DNA of 64,000 nucleotides from an uncultured Eisenbergiella sp. GTDB taxonomy: Bacteria > Bacillota > Clostridia > Lachnospirales > Lachnospiraceae. The notes below the pieces were generated by a model that saw only the letters and a list, made by a program, of their open reading frames with translations, made no database searches and was not told the origin of the DNA. The position numbers and the translations under genes were made by a program. Positions 35,242 through 51,773 of the stretch are shown piece by piece (within the stretch, counting starts at the first letter, position 1; every line of letters begins with the position of its first letter). The stretch is from positions 1-64,000 of the forward strand of contig CANRGX010000007.1 in assembly GCA_947630215.1 (NCBI GenBank), in the 5' to 3' direction.

Positions 35242-36295
35242 TCATATTTTTCTGCTGCTCCCTGACAGTTCATCGGAACATTTCTTCTTCCTTGCGACCA
35301 CCAGCATTTGATCCGCGTATCCCGCCTCATCAATAACCGGCTGAATCCGATTGCTTATATTCATCAAACTGACATATAATTCCGATTCCTCCAAACCGCC
35401 AAGAATCATCGCATTGTTAATAAGATCCGTATACCCCTGCCCGAACTCCCATTTCCCGATGATTTCCAACTGTTCGCCCAAAAGGTATATAAGGGATTTT
35501 TCACTGAACACCTGCAGATGAATCGGCGGTACGATATGACGGTACACCGCGTTAGGGCAGGTCTGGTTTGCAAATGAGGCCAGCGAAGGGTGCCTGGGAA
35601 CTTCAAACACAAAAACGCTGCCGGCTTTCATTCTGTCACAGATATATTTAACGAACCGTACCGGTTCTTCAACGTGCTCAATCACATTGATACATGAAAT
35701 AATATCGCTTGTGCTTATCAGATCATTGATTTCTTTTTCTTCCTTTGTCAAATCAATATAATAATGATATACCCTCAAACCGTGCTCGGAAGCAAAACGC
35801 ACTTCATCCGGGTCCGATTCGATTCCCACCGCTTCAATCTTTGTGTTTTTCAGATATGTAAGGATTTCCCCGCCGCCGCATCCGATATCCAGCCATTGGC
35901 GGACAGGACACCCGTCTTGTTCGCATGCTTCCAGAACAAACCGTACCTTTGGCTCCGATATCAGCCTTACTCTCTGCATATAAACAGACTCGTCTATATA
36001 AAAACTGCCATTTGCGGTGTGATCCGATGCGTACAGTTTTTTAATGTCCGGGAGATTATGAAGAAAAACCGCGCCGCATGTTTTGCACAAATAATAATGA
36101 TATTTTCCCCAGACCGATACAAATAAATCTGAATACCCCCCCCCCGCATATACGGCACCGGGGCGCGTCCCCCTCCATCGGTTCCTTATAACATTCTTCC
36201 GACCGTTTCCTATCCTCGTCAATCATATTCCGAATGGTTCCCAAATTTCTGGAAATCTTTCTCATTTGCATCGGCTTTCCATATTTAATTAACAT
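35242..36295 (-). CDS. Class I SAM methyltransferase with N-terminal zinc ribbon, frameshifted at a G10 tract
   Basis: N-terminal frame (36295 start) MLIKYGKPMQM...APRCRICGGG and downstream frame YSDLFVSVWGKYHYYLCKTCGAVFLHNLP...WLDIGCGGGEILTYLKNTKIEAVGIESD join in frame if the G tract is 9 or 12 nt. Confidence 0.8.
36136..36145 (-). repeat. Homopolymer G10 (C10 on plus strand)
   Basis: gaata-CCCCCCCCCC-gcata on plus strand at the frame break of the methyltransferase. Confidence 0.95.
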
Positions 36296-36986
36296 ATTTT
36301 CCCTCTCCTTTATTTTCTAACAAGGCTTCCAGTACAAGTAAATCCCGCTGCTCATCTATATCCAGATCAAATTCCGAGGGCATTTCGTACCCGTATAAAT
36401 TGTCGTTCAAACTGGTTTCGGCGGTCAAATCCCGGATTCTGTTAATATAAATCGCACCGTTCACAACATAATAATCCGGGAAATCCTGCCTTCGTACCGT
36501 GCTTTGACAGGGAAGCATAGACGTCAGCTTCCCCTCCTGATCCATCCGCCTCAGTAACAGCGGATGGTTTCTTGCGGGAGAGATACTCAACAGAGACGGA
36601 TATTGATTGTCAATCATCAGCTCCAGCGCTTCATCAATATGCAACGCGGTTCTCAACGGCTGTGTCGGCTGCAGCAAAACCAGATAATCAAAGCATTCAC
36701 CCATTTTTTCAACAACGTGGAGCAACACATCAATCGTCCTGCTGGTATCCTGCGCAAGCTCCTTCGGACGGTTCAACACTTCGGCTCCTTCCCGCAATGC
36801 GACCTCCCCGATGGAACTGTCATCTGTGCTGACAATTATCTTATCAATATATTTTGAGGCTCTCGCCGCATCAAGGGTATAGGTTATCAGTTCCTTTCCC
36901 TTTACCTTCACAATATTTTTATGGGGAATCCCCCGGCTGCCGCCCCTTGCCGGAACAACTGCCAGGATCTTATAATTTTTATACAT
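36285..36986 (-). CDS. neuA: Acylneuraminate cytidylyltransferase (CMP-sialic acid synthetase type)
   Basis: ILAVVPARGGSRGIPHKNIVKVKGKELITYTLDAA ... VLLQPTQPLRTALHIDEAL. Confidence 0.92.
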   Translation of the reverse strand: MYKNYKILAVVPARGGSRGIPHKNIVKVKGKELITYTLDAARASKYIDKIIVSTDDSSIGEVALREGAEVLNRPKELAQDTSRTIDVLLHVVEKMGECFDYLVLLQPTQPLRTALHIDEALELMIDNQYPSLLSISPARNHPLLLRRMDQEGKLTSMLPCQSTVRRQDFPDYYVVNGAIYINRIRDLTAETSLNDNLYGYEMPSEFDLDIDEQRDLLVLEALLENKGEGKYVN

Positions 36987-37000
36987 TTTGAACCTTCCCT

Positions 37001-38146
37001 TTAGTCATTTGACCATTTGAGATCAATAAATTTCTTCTGAATATCGAACTTCCAGATTTCATCCTGATGAAGGATATCCAAAAACATCCGCGTACTATTT
37101 CCCATTCCGAAATGTTTCCCGGAAAAACGATATTGCTCCACCTTCCTTATCGCATTTTTAATATCCTCTTTATCTTCTTTTACATGCTGTATATTTTTTA
37201 TCGCATTCTCATCATATCTTCCGCTTTGCCGGCTCCCTATATCAATAGACGGGATGCCGTATATCTCGCTTTCCCTGATCCCTGCGCTTGAATTTCCGAT
37301 AATAAATTTTGCATTTTTCAATAAAGTAAGAAAATATTCAAACCGGATACTGGGAAATACACGAAAGCGTTTACTGTTGCTAAATTTTTTGTATTCTTCC
37401 AATATAATCTCGGAGCCCAAATCATTATTCGGATAAATGACAATATAGTTTTCACCCGATTCAAGGACCGCACCGACAACCCGGCTGATTCTATCGGATA
37501 TAGATTCGTATTCCGTGGTCACCGGATGGTACATCAAAATACCGTACTCCTCAAACGGAATGTCATAGCGCTTTTTACACATGGGAAAAGCAGGCAGATG
37601 AGGGGACAACATGATATCAATATCCGGAGAACCGATAACATATATTCTTGCTTCCTCCTCTCCCAACTGAATCAGCCTGTTTCTGGCCTCGTTGTTACAG
37701 ACCATATGTATATGGGCAAACTTGGATATGGCATGACGGATAGACTCATCAATGGTCCCTGAAAGCTCTCCGCCCTCGATATGAATCACCCGTACATTCT
37801 TTAACGCACCGACAATGGCGCCGGCAAGGGCCTCTATGCGGTCCCCGTGAACAACGATCATATCAATCCCTACTTTTTGTATATAACCGCTCAGTTCACA
37901 GATTACATCTCCCAGATTGTAACTCATATCATTTGTCAGCGCCAAGCCAAATGCCAGATATATATTTTCATAATGGTCCTTTTCGATTTCCCGAAACGTA
38001 TTACCAAACTGCGGAAGCAGATGCATACCGGATACAAAAACAAAAACTTCAAAATCCTCATCTTCATCCACAGCACGAAGCAGACTCTTTATTTTCCCGT
38101 AATCCGCACGGGTGCCGGTTATAAATAATACCTTTTTTCGCATCAT
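37001..38146 (-). CDS. neuC: UDP-N-acetylglucosamine 2-epimerase, hydrolysing (NeuC type)
   Basis: KVLFITGTRADYGKIKSLLRAV ... VIHIEGGELSGTIDESIRHAISKFAHIHMVCN ... IIGNSSAGIRESEIYGIPSIDIGSRQSGR. Confidence 0.93.
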   Translation of the reverse strand: MMRKKVLFITGTRADYGKIKSLLRAVDEDEDFEVFVFVSGMHLLPQFGNTFREIEKDHYENIYLAFGLALTNDMSYNLGDVICELSGYIQKVGIDMIVVHGDRIEALAGAIVGALKNVRVIHIEGGELSGTIDESIRHAISKFAHIHMVCNNEARNRLIQLGEEEARIYVIGSPDIDIMLSPHLPAFPMCKKRYDIPFEEYGILMYHPVTTEYESISDRISRVVGAVLESGENYIVIYPNNDLGSEIILEEYKKFSNSKRFRVFPSIRFEYFLTLLKNAKFIIGNSSAGIRESEIYGIPSIDIGSRQSGRYDENAIKNIQHVKEDKEDIKNAIRKVEQYRFSGKHFGMGNSTRMFLDILHQDEIWKFDIQKKFIDLKWSND

Positions 38147-38153
38147 ACCCCCG

Positions 38154-39200
38154 TTACTCTGCCTTTATCATAGAATATTGCAGCTGTATATCCCGTTCGA
38201 TATCACAGGCCGCGCGCCGCCCAAGTATACTTTCATATTCTTCCGCCAGGATCCCTCCGACACCCGGCCGCTTTACCCATAAATTCTCCCTTGTGAAAGG
38301 TTCCCCGGCTTTTACCGGTTCAATGGTAACAACAGATGCAAAGGCAAAGTCCTCCGTCACTTTTTCTTCTCGAATAGCTTTTTTCTCTCCGTTGAGCATA
38401 AGCGGGATCTCGTCTGCCGCAGCAACAAGCTCCCTCAATCTCTGCTCATCCATAGAACACACGATATCCGGGCCGGTTCGTTCCATTTTATCTGTAAAAT
38501 GCCGTTCCACCAGACATGCGCCCAGAGCCATTGCTGCAATGCAGGCATTGTTATTCAGCGTGTGATCGGAAAGCCCAATCGGAGTATCCGGAAATTCCCG
38601 CATCATTTCCTGCATGGCCCCGAGTCTGACCCATTCCGGCCTGGTCGGATATAAATTGGTCGTATGCATAAGCGCATATGCGACGCCATGCTTTTCCAAT
38701 ATGTTTACCGCCTTAGCAATACTTTTGATATCATTCATCCCTGTAGATACAATCATCGGTTTATGAAACTGCGCCACATATTCGACCAAAGGATAATTGT
38801 TTAGCTCCCCGGATCCAATTTTATATGCCTGTACGCCAAATCTCTCAAGACGTTCGGCCGCTGCTCTGGAAAACGGCGTGCTTAAAAAAAGCATCCCCAG
38901 AGATTCTGTGTATCGCTTCAGTTCTTTTTCATCCTCCTCCGATAAAGCGCACCTTTTCATAATCTCATAAATCGACACATCGGAATTCCCCGGAATAACG
39001 GACTTTGCCGCATGGCTCATTTCATCGTCTACAATATGTGTCTGATGCTTGATCAATTTCGCGCCCGCCCTATGTGCCGCATCCACCATCAGCTTGGCAA
39101 CCTCAAGGCTGCCCTCGTGATTGATTCCAATCTCCGGAATTACCAAAGGCGTGCATCCTATTCCGACTTCAACAGATCCGATAAAAAATTTTTTTTGCAC
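38154..39200 (-). CDS. neuB: N-acetylneuraminate synthase with C-terminal SAF domain
   Basis: [45 protein letters not shown] ... [17 protein letters not shown] ... STGMND; C-terminal [18 protein letters not shown]. Confidence 0.94.
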
Positions 39201-40570
39201 TTTATTTTCCTCCCAAACATAACAGTCAAAACAGAAACGTAGGAAACCAGGACCAAATATCGAACGATTGTATGGCTATATAAAAATGCGCATATGCCGG
39301 AGGCCGCAAAACCAAGTACAACCGTTAATAACACCTTTTTATAACTGTATACCCCTGCATATCCCAGTCGGGCAACCAGAACCATATGAATCACCAAAAG
39401 CCACAAATAACCGGCCAGAGTCGTATAGGCGGCGGCGGTGTACCCGAATCTGGGAATGAAAACATAATTCAGTATCAAATTCAACAGCGCAGCAGATACG
39501 CTGGCAAATGCCATCCCCACTGTTTTCTTCTTGCATTGCTCTACGTTTACGAACATGGTATATAAGAATTGGCACACACACCCAAGCATTACCGGCGGCA
39601 TAACATATACGGCTTCCATATAGGAACGTCCGCCCATGATCCACAGGATTTCCGGAGCAATCAACATAACGGCTAAACTGCAGCAGGCAAAAACGTCTAT
39701 ATATTTAAAGGAAAAAAGCCGAATTTGATCATACTCCTCATTGGCAAGTTTTTCTGCAAGCCATGGGCTATATGCCATATTGCATGCCGTCAGTAATAAC
39801 ATCATGATAAGTCCGCAGTTGTATGCGAGACCGTATAAAGCGGTTTTCTCTGTTCCGCAAAAAAAGGTAATCATCAGTCTGTCCGTTGAATGAAGCACAA
39901 TCAACGATAAGGAATGCGGAATATACGGCAGCCCGATTTGTAACGCATATTTCCAACTGGACAGATAAATTCTCTTTTTTCTATGTGCAAAAAACAGGAA
40001 TAGCGCTCCGCCCAAAAAAATTGTTCCGACGGCCATTCCCAGAATAACGGCAGTCAGTTTATTTTCCAGAATAAGGGAAAATATAAGCGGGAAAATCAAA
40101 CTGCATACAGAGACAATTATACTGATCAGCGCATTCTTTTTATATGCAAAGCAGAATCTTTCCCTTGCCTGGAACAAATCCACCGCAGGGGAAAAAAGCA
40201 GATACAACATCATGATATTCAGATGCTGCCTTTCAATTCCAAAAAAAGGTTCCAGATATTCCCAAAAAATATTGAAAAAAACGGTCCATCCTGCTACGGA
40301 CATGAAACTGAGCAATAATACAGAAAAAATATAACTGTCAAACGTATCTGCGTAATCATACTTAGCACAGACCATTGTTGAAGATAGATTTAACGTAACA
40401 AGGATCGTCAAAATAGCCAACAGAGAAGTATAATTATTGTAGATTCCATATGATTGTTTGGTCAGGATACGCGTAAAAATCGGAATCGTCAAGTAACTGA
40501 TCCCGCGTACTAAAACATAAGAAAGCGTATACCATACTCCCGATTTTAAAGCTTTTATATTATTGTTCAT
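39158..40570 (-). CDS. Oligosaccharide flippase (Wzx-like) 2
   Basis: [46 protein letters not shown] is typical of polysaccharide flippases. Confidence 0.9.
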
Positions 40571-44914: not shown

Positions 44915-45820
44915 CTACTCTCCAAATGAATACATTTCCAGCTGCTTTCTAAAGCCTGCATTGGTATGATATTCATTCAGATAATATTCCCACAGCCGTT
45001 CTATGCCGCCGGTAAGATCGGTAAATGTAAATTCTCCTATTTCTGCAAGCAGCCTTGTGTTATCACCCGTATATGGCAGCTTATCCCCCCCTTGGCGTAT
45101 GCGGACGGGAAATCCTCTCCCGCACCTTTGTCCTATCAAATCCGCTATCTTGGAAAGTCTGACGGCACTTCCCGTACACACATTATAATCATGATATTCA
45201 GGGGTATGTTCAATATACCAAATCATAAGCCGGCGCAAATCATCGATATACAGATAATCAAATTCCATATCCTGATAAATGGAAATCGGAAACCCTCTTA
45301 ATATTCGGCACATATTATTCGAGATAAACCGCCGGTTCCATTCCTCATATTTCCCATATACGCCAAAGAGACGCAGATTATATATATTTTCTGACTTTCT
45401 TGCACTCTGGTTCATAATATATTTGGAAAACCCATAGGCATCCTGCGGAATGTGTGTCCCAAAGTATCCTTCCGACATATTGGGGATATAGTGCTGCGTA
45501 TCAAATTCTGCCCCCGAGCCAAAATAGTACAGCTTTTTATAGAGCTGGCTGCACCGTGCAAGATTCCAATACATTCTCAAATTTCCGTACAAAATGTCAT
45601 ACGGATTTACATTCTCTTTATTGATTCTGGTATTATTTGTATTGGCACAGTGAATTACCGTATCAAAAGAATGTTCCTCCAAATACTGTGCGGTCTTTTC
45701 CGTGTCCAGCAGATCCAGTTCATAACGGGACGGCGCGTATACCTGATACTGCTCTTTCAGACCTTCCGCCAGATTCCTGCCAATGAATCCACCGCCGCCT
45801 GTTACTAAAATCTTTTGCAT
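44915..45820 (-). CDS. NAD-dependent epimerase/dehydratase/reductase (extended SDR)
   Basis: MQKILVTGGGGFIGRNLAEGLKEQY ... YGFSKYIMNQ (YxxxK) ... NLRLFGVYGKYE. Confidence 0.9.
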   Translation of the reverse strand: MQKILVTGGGGFIGRNLAEGLKEQYQVYAPSRYELDLLDTEKTAQYLEEHSFDTVIHCANTNNTRINKENVNPYDILYGNLRMYWNLARCSQLYKKLYYFGSGAEFDTQHYIPNMSEGYFGTHIPQDAYGFSKYIMNQSARKSENIYNLRLFGVYGKYEEWNRRFISNNMCRILRGFPISIYQDMEFDYLYIDDLRRLMIWYIEHTPEYHDYNVCTGSAVRLSKIADLIGQRCGRGFPVRIRQGGDKLPYTGDNTRLLAEIGEFTFTDLTGGIERLWEYYLNEYHTNAGFRKQLEMYSFGE

Positions 45821-45862
45821 TCTTTTCCCCTTAAAACCGTCCGCCATACTGTAAAATTCCCG

Positions 45863-49885: not shown

Positions 49886-50944
49886 TCAATCCTGTTTTTC
49901 AAACATTTTATATTCCACATACTCTGCAATTACATGCCCTATAAATATGTGTGCCTCCTGAATCCTCGGTGTCACCAATGACGGTACTTGAATCATATAA
50001 TCTGCCACATGGTTCAGCTCCGGGGTCTCAAATCCTCCCATAAGCAAAACCGATACGATCCCGTTCTGTCTGGCGTAGCGCAGCGCTTCCAGTACATTTT
50101 TGCTTGTCCCGCTGGTGGAAAGTCCGATTAACATATCCCCCTCGCGCGCCTTTGCCTCTAATTGCCTTGCGAACACCCTTTCAAAACTATAGTCATTTCC
50201 GATTGCGGTCAGCGTGGAGGTGTTGACTGACAGAGCTTCCGCATTCAGTCCGGGACGTTCTCTGTAAAACCGACTGATAAATTCCGTTGCGATATGCTGC
50301 GCATCCGCGGCGCTTCCGCCATTGCCGCACAGATAAATACATCCGCCTTTTCTCAGAACCGAAACCATCCTCTCTCCGACCGCCATAACTTTGTCTGTCA
50401 ATTCCTGATCGGATGCAAGTGTTTTAAATATATTCGTGTGTTCCTCGATTTTCTGATAAAAAAAATGCTGCGTGCAGTTTTCGTTGTTATATCTCTCCAA
50501 TATGGAAATAATTTCCCAAATACATCCTTTTCCGCCATCATTATGCAGAATCATATCCGCAGCGTTTTTCGCCGCGTCGATAGCGTTGGCCGGACATATG
50601 CCAAGCCCCGCATAGGAAAGCGGCTCCACGTCATATTTTCCATCGCCGATATAACAGATTCTTTCTCTGCCGATGCCGGTGTTCTTTTCGATCCGCTGCA
50701 GAGTTTCTTTTTTTGATTTATTGCCGCGGTAAAAAGAATGCCAGGGAAACCTTTTTTCAAAATAATTCACAATGTCCGTGTCCTCGCCGGTAATGGCGAC
50801 GAGCTTATATCCCCTGCGATGCAGTTCAAAAATAGCATCTATATCTTTTAGATTAACCAGCTTTTGTTCTTTCCCGTCAGAATCAACGATGACGGAACCG
50901 TCCGTTATAACGCCATCAATATCCAATACGATTAATTCGATCAT
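49886..50944 (-). CDS. Fusion of HAD phosphatase (KdsC-like) and SIS domain (GmhA-like)
   Basis: IELIVLDIDGVITDGSVIVDSDGKEQKLVNLKDIDAI ... CYIGDGKYDVEPL (KdsC-like), then GGCIYLCGNGGSAADAQHIATEFISRFYRERPGLNAEALSVNTSTLTAIGNDY (GmhA-like). Confidence 0.92.
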   Translation of the reverse strand: MIELIVLDIDGVITDGSVIVDSDGKEQKLVNLKDIDAIFELHRRGYKLVAITGEDTDIVNYFEKRFPWHSFYRGNKSKKETLQRIEKNTGIGRERICYIGDGKYDVEPLSYAGLGICPANAIDAAKNAADMILHNDGGKGCIWEIISILERYNNENCTQHFFYQKIEEHTNIFKTLASDQELTDKVMAVGERMVSVLRKGGCIYLCGNGGSAADAQHIATEFISRFYRERPGLNAEALSVNTSTLTAIGNDYSFERVFARQLEAKAREGDMLIGLSTSGTSKNVLEALRYARQNGIVSVLLMGGFETPELNHVADYMIQVPSLVTPRIQEAHIFIGHVIAEYVEYKMFEKQD

Positions 50945-50948
50945 AAAA

Positions 50949-51773
50949 TCAACCTCTGAGTTTTTTCTTTACTTCTTCTTCGGCGGCGGTCAGAACTTTT
51001 TCTCCCGTACCCATAATCTTTTCCGTCTTACGAATATCCCGAACCAATCCGCACAGCTCATGGGGCTCAATGGATGCTTTCTGATCGGAACCGTACATAT
51101 TCTTATCCAGTGTAATATGACGCTCGATGGAGGCCGCGCCTGCCGCAACCGCACAGATACTTACAAATATCCCTTTTTCATGTCCGCTGTATCCGACCTG
51201 GCAATGATATTTGTCTGCGAGTACCCGTATCAGCTTTAGATTTGCATCTTCCTCAGGCATAGGATAGGTACTGTTACAGTGCATCAGTTCAAAAGGACAG
51301 TTATGTTTCCTGAATATTTCCACCGCATGGTCAATCTCGGCATATGTACTCATGCCGGTGGCAATAAAGGTATACTTCCCCTCTCCGGCAATCTCCTCTA
51401 AAAGTTCATCGTTAACCAACATAGCGGAAGCTACCTTGTTAAATTTACAGTCGTACTGACGCAAAAATCTCTGGGAGTCCACATCCCATGCGGAGGCAAA
51501 CCATGCGATTCCTTTTTCCCTGCAATACCGGTTTATTTCATCGTACTCCTCCTTGCCAAACTCCAGCCCCTCCTTCTGGGCACGCTGAGTATTTCCCCAG
51601 GGGCTTTGCCTCGGGCTGTCCAGATACTCTTTGGAATACACCTTGTCCACAGTGCGCTTCTGAAATTTTACGGCATCACATCCTGCCGCTGCTGCGGCGT
51701 CGATCAGCTTTTTTGCAAGAGCCAAATCCCCGTTGTGGTTAATTCCGATTTCTGCAATAATCGTCGTTTTCAC
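50949..51773 (-). CDS. N-acetylneuraminate synthase-family protein lacking a SAF domain
   Basis: TTIIAEIGINHNGDLALAKKLIDAAAAAGCDAVKFQKRTVDKVYS ... ATGMSTYAEIDHAV ... LMHCNSTYPMPEEDANL ... GYSGHEKG; ends before any SAF domain. Confidence 0.92.
   Translation of the reverse strand: MKTTIIAEIGINHNGDLALAKKLIDAAAAAGCDAVKFQKRTVDKVYSKEYLDSPRQSPWGNTQRAQKEGLEFGKEEYDEINRYCREKGIAWFASAWDVDSQRFLRQYDCKFNKVASAMLVNDELLEEIAGEGKYTFIATGMSTYAEIDHAVEIFRKHNCPFELMHCNSTYPMPEEDANLKLIRVLADKYHCQVGYSGHEKGIFVSICAVAAGAASIERHITLDKNMYGSDQKASIEPHELCGLVRDIRKTEKIMGTGEKVLTAAEEEVKKKLRG

Follow-up and report, generated by a model that had tools for sequence, protein, structure and literature searches.

A run of ten guanines divides a zinc-ribbon methyltransferase gene in a nonulosonate locus of an uncultured Eisenbergiella: a candidate phase-variable switch

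An interrupted methyltransferase gene and its genetic setting

The window analyzed here, a 64,000-nucleotide stretch of DNA from an uncultured Eisenbergiella sp., includes a polysaccharide locus that encodes both flippases and glycosyltransferases. Within it, a minus-strand series of ORFs encodes a polysaccharide flippase of the Wzx type (39158..40570; PF01943), a NeuB-type nonulosonate synthase (38154..39200; PF03102, 1e-69; TIGR03569, 383 bits against a cut-off of 400), the hydrolysing UDP-GlcNAc 2-epimerase NeuC (37001..38146; TIGR03568, 399 bits against a cut-off of 236) and a CMP-nonulosonate cytidylyltransferase of the NeuA type (36285..36986; PF02348, 4e-23). NeuC scores above its NCBI cut-off and NeuB falls slightly below; with synthase and cytidylyltransferase types adjoining a NeuC that passes, the glycan locus recognized in the original prediction can be specified as one that makes a nonulosonic (sialic-like) acid. 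Downstream of these neuB-neuC-neuA-type genes lies a methyltransferase gene whose ATG at 36295 sits 11 nt inside the neuA-type gene, a stop/start overlap that had been noted earlier as fitting translational coupling. A good ribosome-binding site, AAGGAGAGGG (36301..36310, minus strand), places GGAG nine bases before this ATG.

The methyltransferase gene is divided by an exact homopolymer of ten G (36136..36145, minus strand). Read directly, the minus strand runs ...CCG TAT ATG C, then the ten G (36145-36136), then TATTCAGAT... No other G/C run in the window reaches eight, and the 2.57 Mb genome from which the window derives has three runs of at least nine, of which this is the longest. The ORF opening at 36295 comprises 79 codons and ends at a stop at 36058-36056. 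Its product (36056..36295, minus strand) begins MLIKYGKPMQMRKISRNLG..., with an N-terminus that aligns with homologues, and includes the first zinc knuckle, C47-R-I-C50 (36146..36157), immediately upstream of the run; it then reads ...CRICGGG-VFRFIC... into out-of-frame residues. In this way the tract uncouples the reading frame of the first 53 codons from that of the rest, a zinc-ribbon/SAM methyltransferase some 300 residues long. That remainder (35242..36135, minus strand) occupies the +1 frame beyond the tract, YSDLFVSVWGKYHYYLCKTCGAVF..., open to 35242, and contains the second zinc knuckle, C70-K-T-C73 (36076..36087), the SAM-binding domain (Methyltransf_23) with SAM motif I, DIGCGGGE (35866..35889; assigned from Pfam and the homologue alignment), and the C-terminus. 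Removing one G, or adding two, yields a single frame of 350 codons with the paired cysteines C47-x2-C50 and C70-x2-C73, so that the predicted division of the ORF by ten G, and its rejoining at nine or 12, are both borne out at the sequence level. The gene accordingly has one trait of contingency genes, a homopolymer inside an ORF in which a change of a single G shifts the frame. An alternative start at TTG 36222, from which a mechanical ORF list derives a 326-residue product, is implausible because that product begins with out-of-frame residues.

Two other features of the window may be noted. A second cluster of nonulosonate type (49886-51773) pairs a NeuB-like synthase with a fusion of HAD-phosphatase and SIS-isomerase, and the same pair recurs in another genome of the genus (G007; L116). 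In the same glycan locus as the methyltransferase, an NAD-epimerase-like gene (44915-45847) has a G7 run in its coding strand (45085-45091).

Conservation, predicted fold and homologues of the methyltransferase

An intact homologue, 57% identical over its full length, is present in G007 (contig CANQVD010000019, 'uncultured Eisenbergiella sp.'; L006/L035). Across the tract region its sequence, CRICGSENAELFVSVWGKYHYYECRQCG, aligns with the nine-G reading of the interrupted gene, CRICGGGYSDLFVSVWGKYHYYLCKTCG, with no gap. The four zinc-ribbon cysteines (C47, C50, C70 and C73) are invariant in an alignment of six homologues, and in the nine-G frame the interrupted gene keeps 66 of the 67 columns that are invariant in five homologues. 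From the gapless alignment and these retained columns, the G10 run is the only visible lesion in a gene that is otherwise intact on both sides.

The SAM domain is identified by Pfam (PF13489, 3e-14) and qualifies as class I SAM-binding, and Pfam returned no match in the methyltransferase to PF08421, the zinc-binding domain of TylCIII/TcaB9/MtmC type. The fold of the intact homologue was predicted with a pLDDT of 71 from a seven-sequence alignment (36 from the single sequence), and its best matches in the PDB are MtmC, KijD1 and TcaB9 (E 7e-13 to 1e-11, TM about 0.5). These are TDP-sugar C-methyltransferases that likewise combine a zinc-binding N-terminal part with a SAM domain; together with the invariant cysteines, they uphold the suggestion that the layout is one known from sugar methyltransferases. 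They differ in sharing only 15-19% identity with the present protein, in which PF08421 is missing and whose substrate is probably nonulosonate-linked. As the PF08421 model fails to match despite the match in fold, we have not filed the protein in the sugar C-methyltransferase family. By gene setting alone it may also be likened to PtmH, a legionaminic acid N-methyltransferase encoded beside nonulosonate biosynthesis genes (PMC13317340).

Close homologues also adjoin neuA and neuB (L006, L036), and in Epulopiscium genomes (L007/L038/L039) NeuB is fused to a member of the same methyltransferase family, a fusion that supports a nonulosonate role for the family. The simplest reading, we infer, is that the enzyme methylates the nonulosonic acid or the glycan containing it, which would be displayed on the cell surface.

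A homologue on a mouse Lachnospiraceae contig (L036; 54% identical) follows the same neuB-neuC-neuA order, accompanied by a polysialyltransferase-like gene, in a short-read MEGAHIT assembly. It too is frameshifted, at a G7 run some 11 codons upstream of the site of the G10 tract, and the two breaks call for opposite corrections: one G added in the L036 gene, one G removed here. Beside the broken L036 homologue, a TylF-type methyltransferase gene contains a G8 run (L036:4176-4183), so that this neu operon contains two methyltransferase genes with tracts. Runs of G7 to G10 occur in four of the seven close homologues, at four different codons (51, 40, 140 and 128), the gene with the run at codon 128 having a G+C content of just 31%. 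Five more distant homologues showed no such run. The proposition that would count against a switch, namely that homologues are non-repetitive and lack length variation, is borne out only partially: no run occupies this site in the closest intact homologue, which does, however, contain an in-frame G8 at a different codon, and another homologue is broken at its G7.

These comparisons bear on two alternative accounts of the broken frame. One is that a single indel in the run inactivated the gene, leaving a fixed pseudogene now in decay, for which one may cite the breaks here and in L036 and the lack of the gene from most genomes of the genus. Decay of this kind seems improbable for a sequence that retains its conserved columns and 350 codons free of any other lesion, when the frame has been broken twice independently, each time in a poly-G run; nor would random decay explain why glycan-decorating genes have an excess of such runs, as described below. 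The other is that programmed ribosomal frameshifting or transcriptional slippage yields some full-length protein from DNA of fixed length. Ten G could support polymerase slippage, and a low level of full-length product is conceivable. Yet the opposite shifts, at different positions, in the two broken homologues are unlike a conserved programmed signal, and we reject programmed frameshifting on this ground. The local RNA fold is no stabler than that of shuffled sequences (z = 0.13), and no slippery heptamer with downstream structure was seen around the tract. Expression by either route at fixed length is, in our estimate, the least probable of the accounts considered.

Searches for further copies of the methyltransferase gene revealed no second copy in genome contigs (one genome per species) or in a flanking-pattern scan of viral contigs, and no match among plasmids. 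Besides the gene itself, 397 Lachnospiraceae genomes contained distant homologues only.

Poly-G tracts in the genus and a proposed switch

Among 13 genomes of the genus we counted 225 runs of G7, 48 of G8 and 44 of G9 or more, where about 9 of the last class would be expected by extrapolating the decay from G7 to G8. The excess pertains both to G007 (19 runs of at least nine G against 2.7 expected, P about 1e-10) and to the genus outside it (25 against 6.6, P about 4e-8). In the genome of the window the excess is mild (three runs in 2.57 Mb against about 0.6 expected, P = 0.02); this raw count is not extreme, and the significance of the G10 tract derives from the placement of the run and from comparative evidence. 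A candidate further tract in this genome is an in-frame G9 (L002:1501-1509; C1:83569) in a gene that encodes a DUF2142 membrane protein and directly precedes a WecG/TagA-like gene.

Glycan-decorating functions account for 18 of the 21 same-genus genes with runs of at least nine G and a Pfam match; among genes with G7 runs the figure is one of 12 (Fisher P about 2e-5), the categories having been assigned by hand by the analyst and the G7 controls, mostly housekeeping genes, coming from two genomes of the genus that differ from the sources of most tract genes. Counting all genes, including eight tract genes that lack a Pfam match, the proportions are 18/29 and 1/20 (P about 6e-5). The glycan-decorating set comprises FkbM methyltransferases, Acyl_transf_3 acyltransferases, MBOAT O-acyltransferases, an epimerase, Bac_transf and GtrII; the few other tract genes encode a LacI regulator, an ion channel and DUF2142. 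A second trait of contingency genes, enrichment of repeats with a bias toward surface and glycan genes, is consequently present across the genus. In G007 the runs cluster in glycan loci, where about 33 runs of at least eight G (L112-L118) accompany FkbM, Acyl_transf_3 and MBOAT genes.

Several of these genes are split, with long open frames on either side of the run. Two MBOAT O-acyltransferase genes (L091, L105), from different genomes of the genus, are divided by G10 at slightly different codons, as is an epimerase gene (L082) by G10; an ion-channel gene is split at G11 (L093) and a GtrII-type glucosyltransferase gene at G9 (L106:1553-1561). Variability is a classic feature of genes for GtrII-like serotype-converting enzymes. 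Of same-genus runs of at least ten G within genes, five are broken and two open, close to the 2:1 that random phase would give. Every G10 break requires the loss of one G, in a sample too small to infer that the ON state is always nine G. The expectation of poly-G in glycan-decorating genes, on the pattern of Campylobacter-type contingency loci, is in this manner realized in relatives, some of them frameshifted.

An error of sequencing or assembly, with a true length of nine G and a gene that is always on, has also to be weighed. Homopolymers of about ten are prone to error, and for G-tracts of Bifidobacterium the lengths in databases differ from those measured (PMC9187656). Against this stand the poly-G frame breaks in several independent genomes, apparent short-read assemblies among them, as judged by contig names suggestive of SPAdes (NODE style, G007) and MEGAHIT (L036), and the functional bias of the tract genes, which errors would not be expected to produce. 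A true tract of nine G would, in any event, remain a candidate site of slippage. We consider error an unlikely explanation, if a somewhat stronger contender than a fixed pseudogene.

We favor, with a probability of roughly three in four, the interpretation that the G10 tract is a slipped-strand, phase-variable switch of the methyltransferase, captured in its OFF state; this assessment draws on sequence comparisons throughout. DNA polymerase would lose or gain G within the tract and so move the gene between open and closed frames, a change that would be reversible, the tract differing in length from cell to cell. At nine or 12 G the full zinc-ribbon methyltransferase of 350 residues would be made and the glycan methylated; at ten or 11 a short N-terminal peptide would result and the glycan would stay unmethylated. 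The assembly would represent the closed state, and the tract would belong with the other poly-G tracts of glycan-decorating genes in the genus.

Relation to known systems and occurrence in Lachnospiraceae

The proposed switch most resembles the poly-G genes of Campylobacter jejuni, in which a coding tract of about 9-10 G in a glycan-modifying gene turns expression ON or OFF by frameshift. Examples are cgtB, of LOS synthesis, with truncation at its poly-G (PMC6437147), and Cj1295, a homopolymeric-tract gene of flagellin glycosylation (PMC13317340). They differ in belonging to a Gram-negative member of the Campylobacterota with measured variation, whereas the present tract is that of a Lachnospiraceae genome, known from sequence alone. 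In a Gram-positive gut commensal, Bifidobacterium breve, G-tracts of bbr_0113 and bbr_1889 similarly split one ORF in two, forming a pilus switch with mixed tract lengths measured (PMC9187656); there the controlled product is a sortase pilus rather than a glycan-modifying enzyme, and the gene is unrelated and from another phylum. In Mediterraneibacter gnavus, one study concluded that capsule genes are not detectably phase-variable (PMC13121745). The open-access papers searched contain no account of homopolymer switches in Lachnospiraceae; the slipped-strand mechanism is known, and its spread through glycan-decorating genes of this family appears to be undescribed in those papers.

Across the 397 Lachnospiraceae genomes, 249 lack any G10 run and a minority have many. 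One genus (g61) includes genomes with 28 (G072) and 37 (G436) tracts of at least ten G. About half of the g61 tracts inspected lie outside long ORFs, and coding tracts of at least ten are in frame in 19 cases and broken in two, so that a long G run alone does not imply random switching. Several of the g61 tracts, of 10-11 G, separate near-perfect -35 and -10 promoter boxes, as in TTGACA-18-TATAAT (L190), TTGACA-18-TAGAAT (L165) and TTGACA-19-TAGAAT (L147), and in another genus (L142) a poly-G spacer lies within TTGACA-19-TATCAT. From their layout these four are candidate phase-variable promoters, switched by spacer length. On balance we lean toward the view that part of the Lachnospiraceae, including the source genus, exploits poly-G contingency as Campylobacter does, with many independent switches, in coding sequences and in promoter spacers, generating combinatorial variation of surface glycans.

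The binding of gut bacteria by phages, antibodies and lectins depends on surface-glycan variation, which in gut Bacteroides arises by DNA inversions. Should the tracts described here indeed switch, counting G-tract lengths in ordinary deep sequencing would give a readout of strain-level glycan heterogeneity in Lachnospiraceae.

Two genomes with very high poly-G counts (G215, G263) were set aside as possible artefacts, given a G74 run near contig ends and flanks of G-rich repeats. A contig labelled as part of a Methanobrevibacter MAG (L040), possibly misbinned, carries a Lachnospiraceae/Clostridia-like methyltransferase together with poly-G runs.
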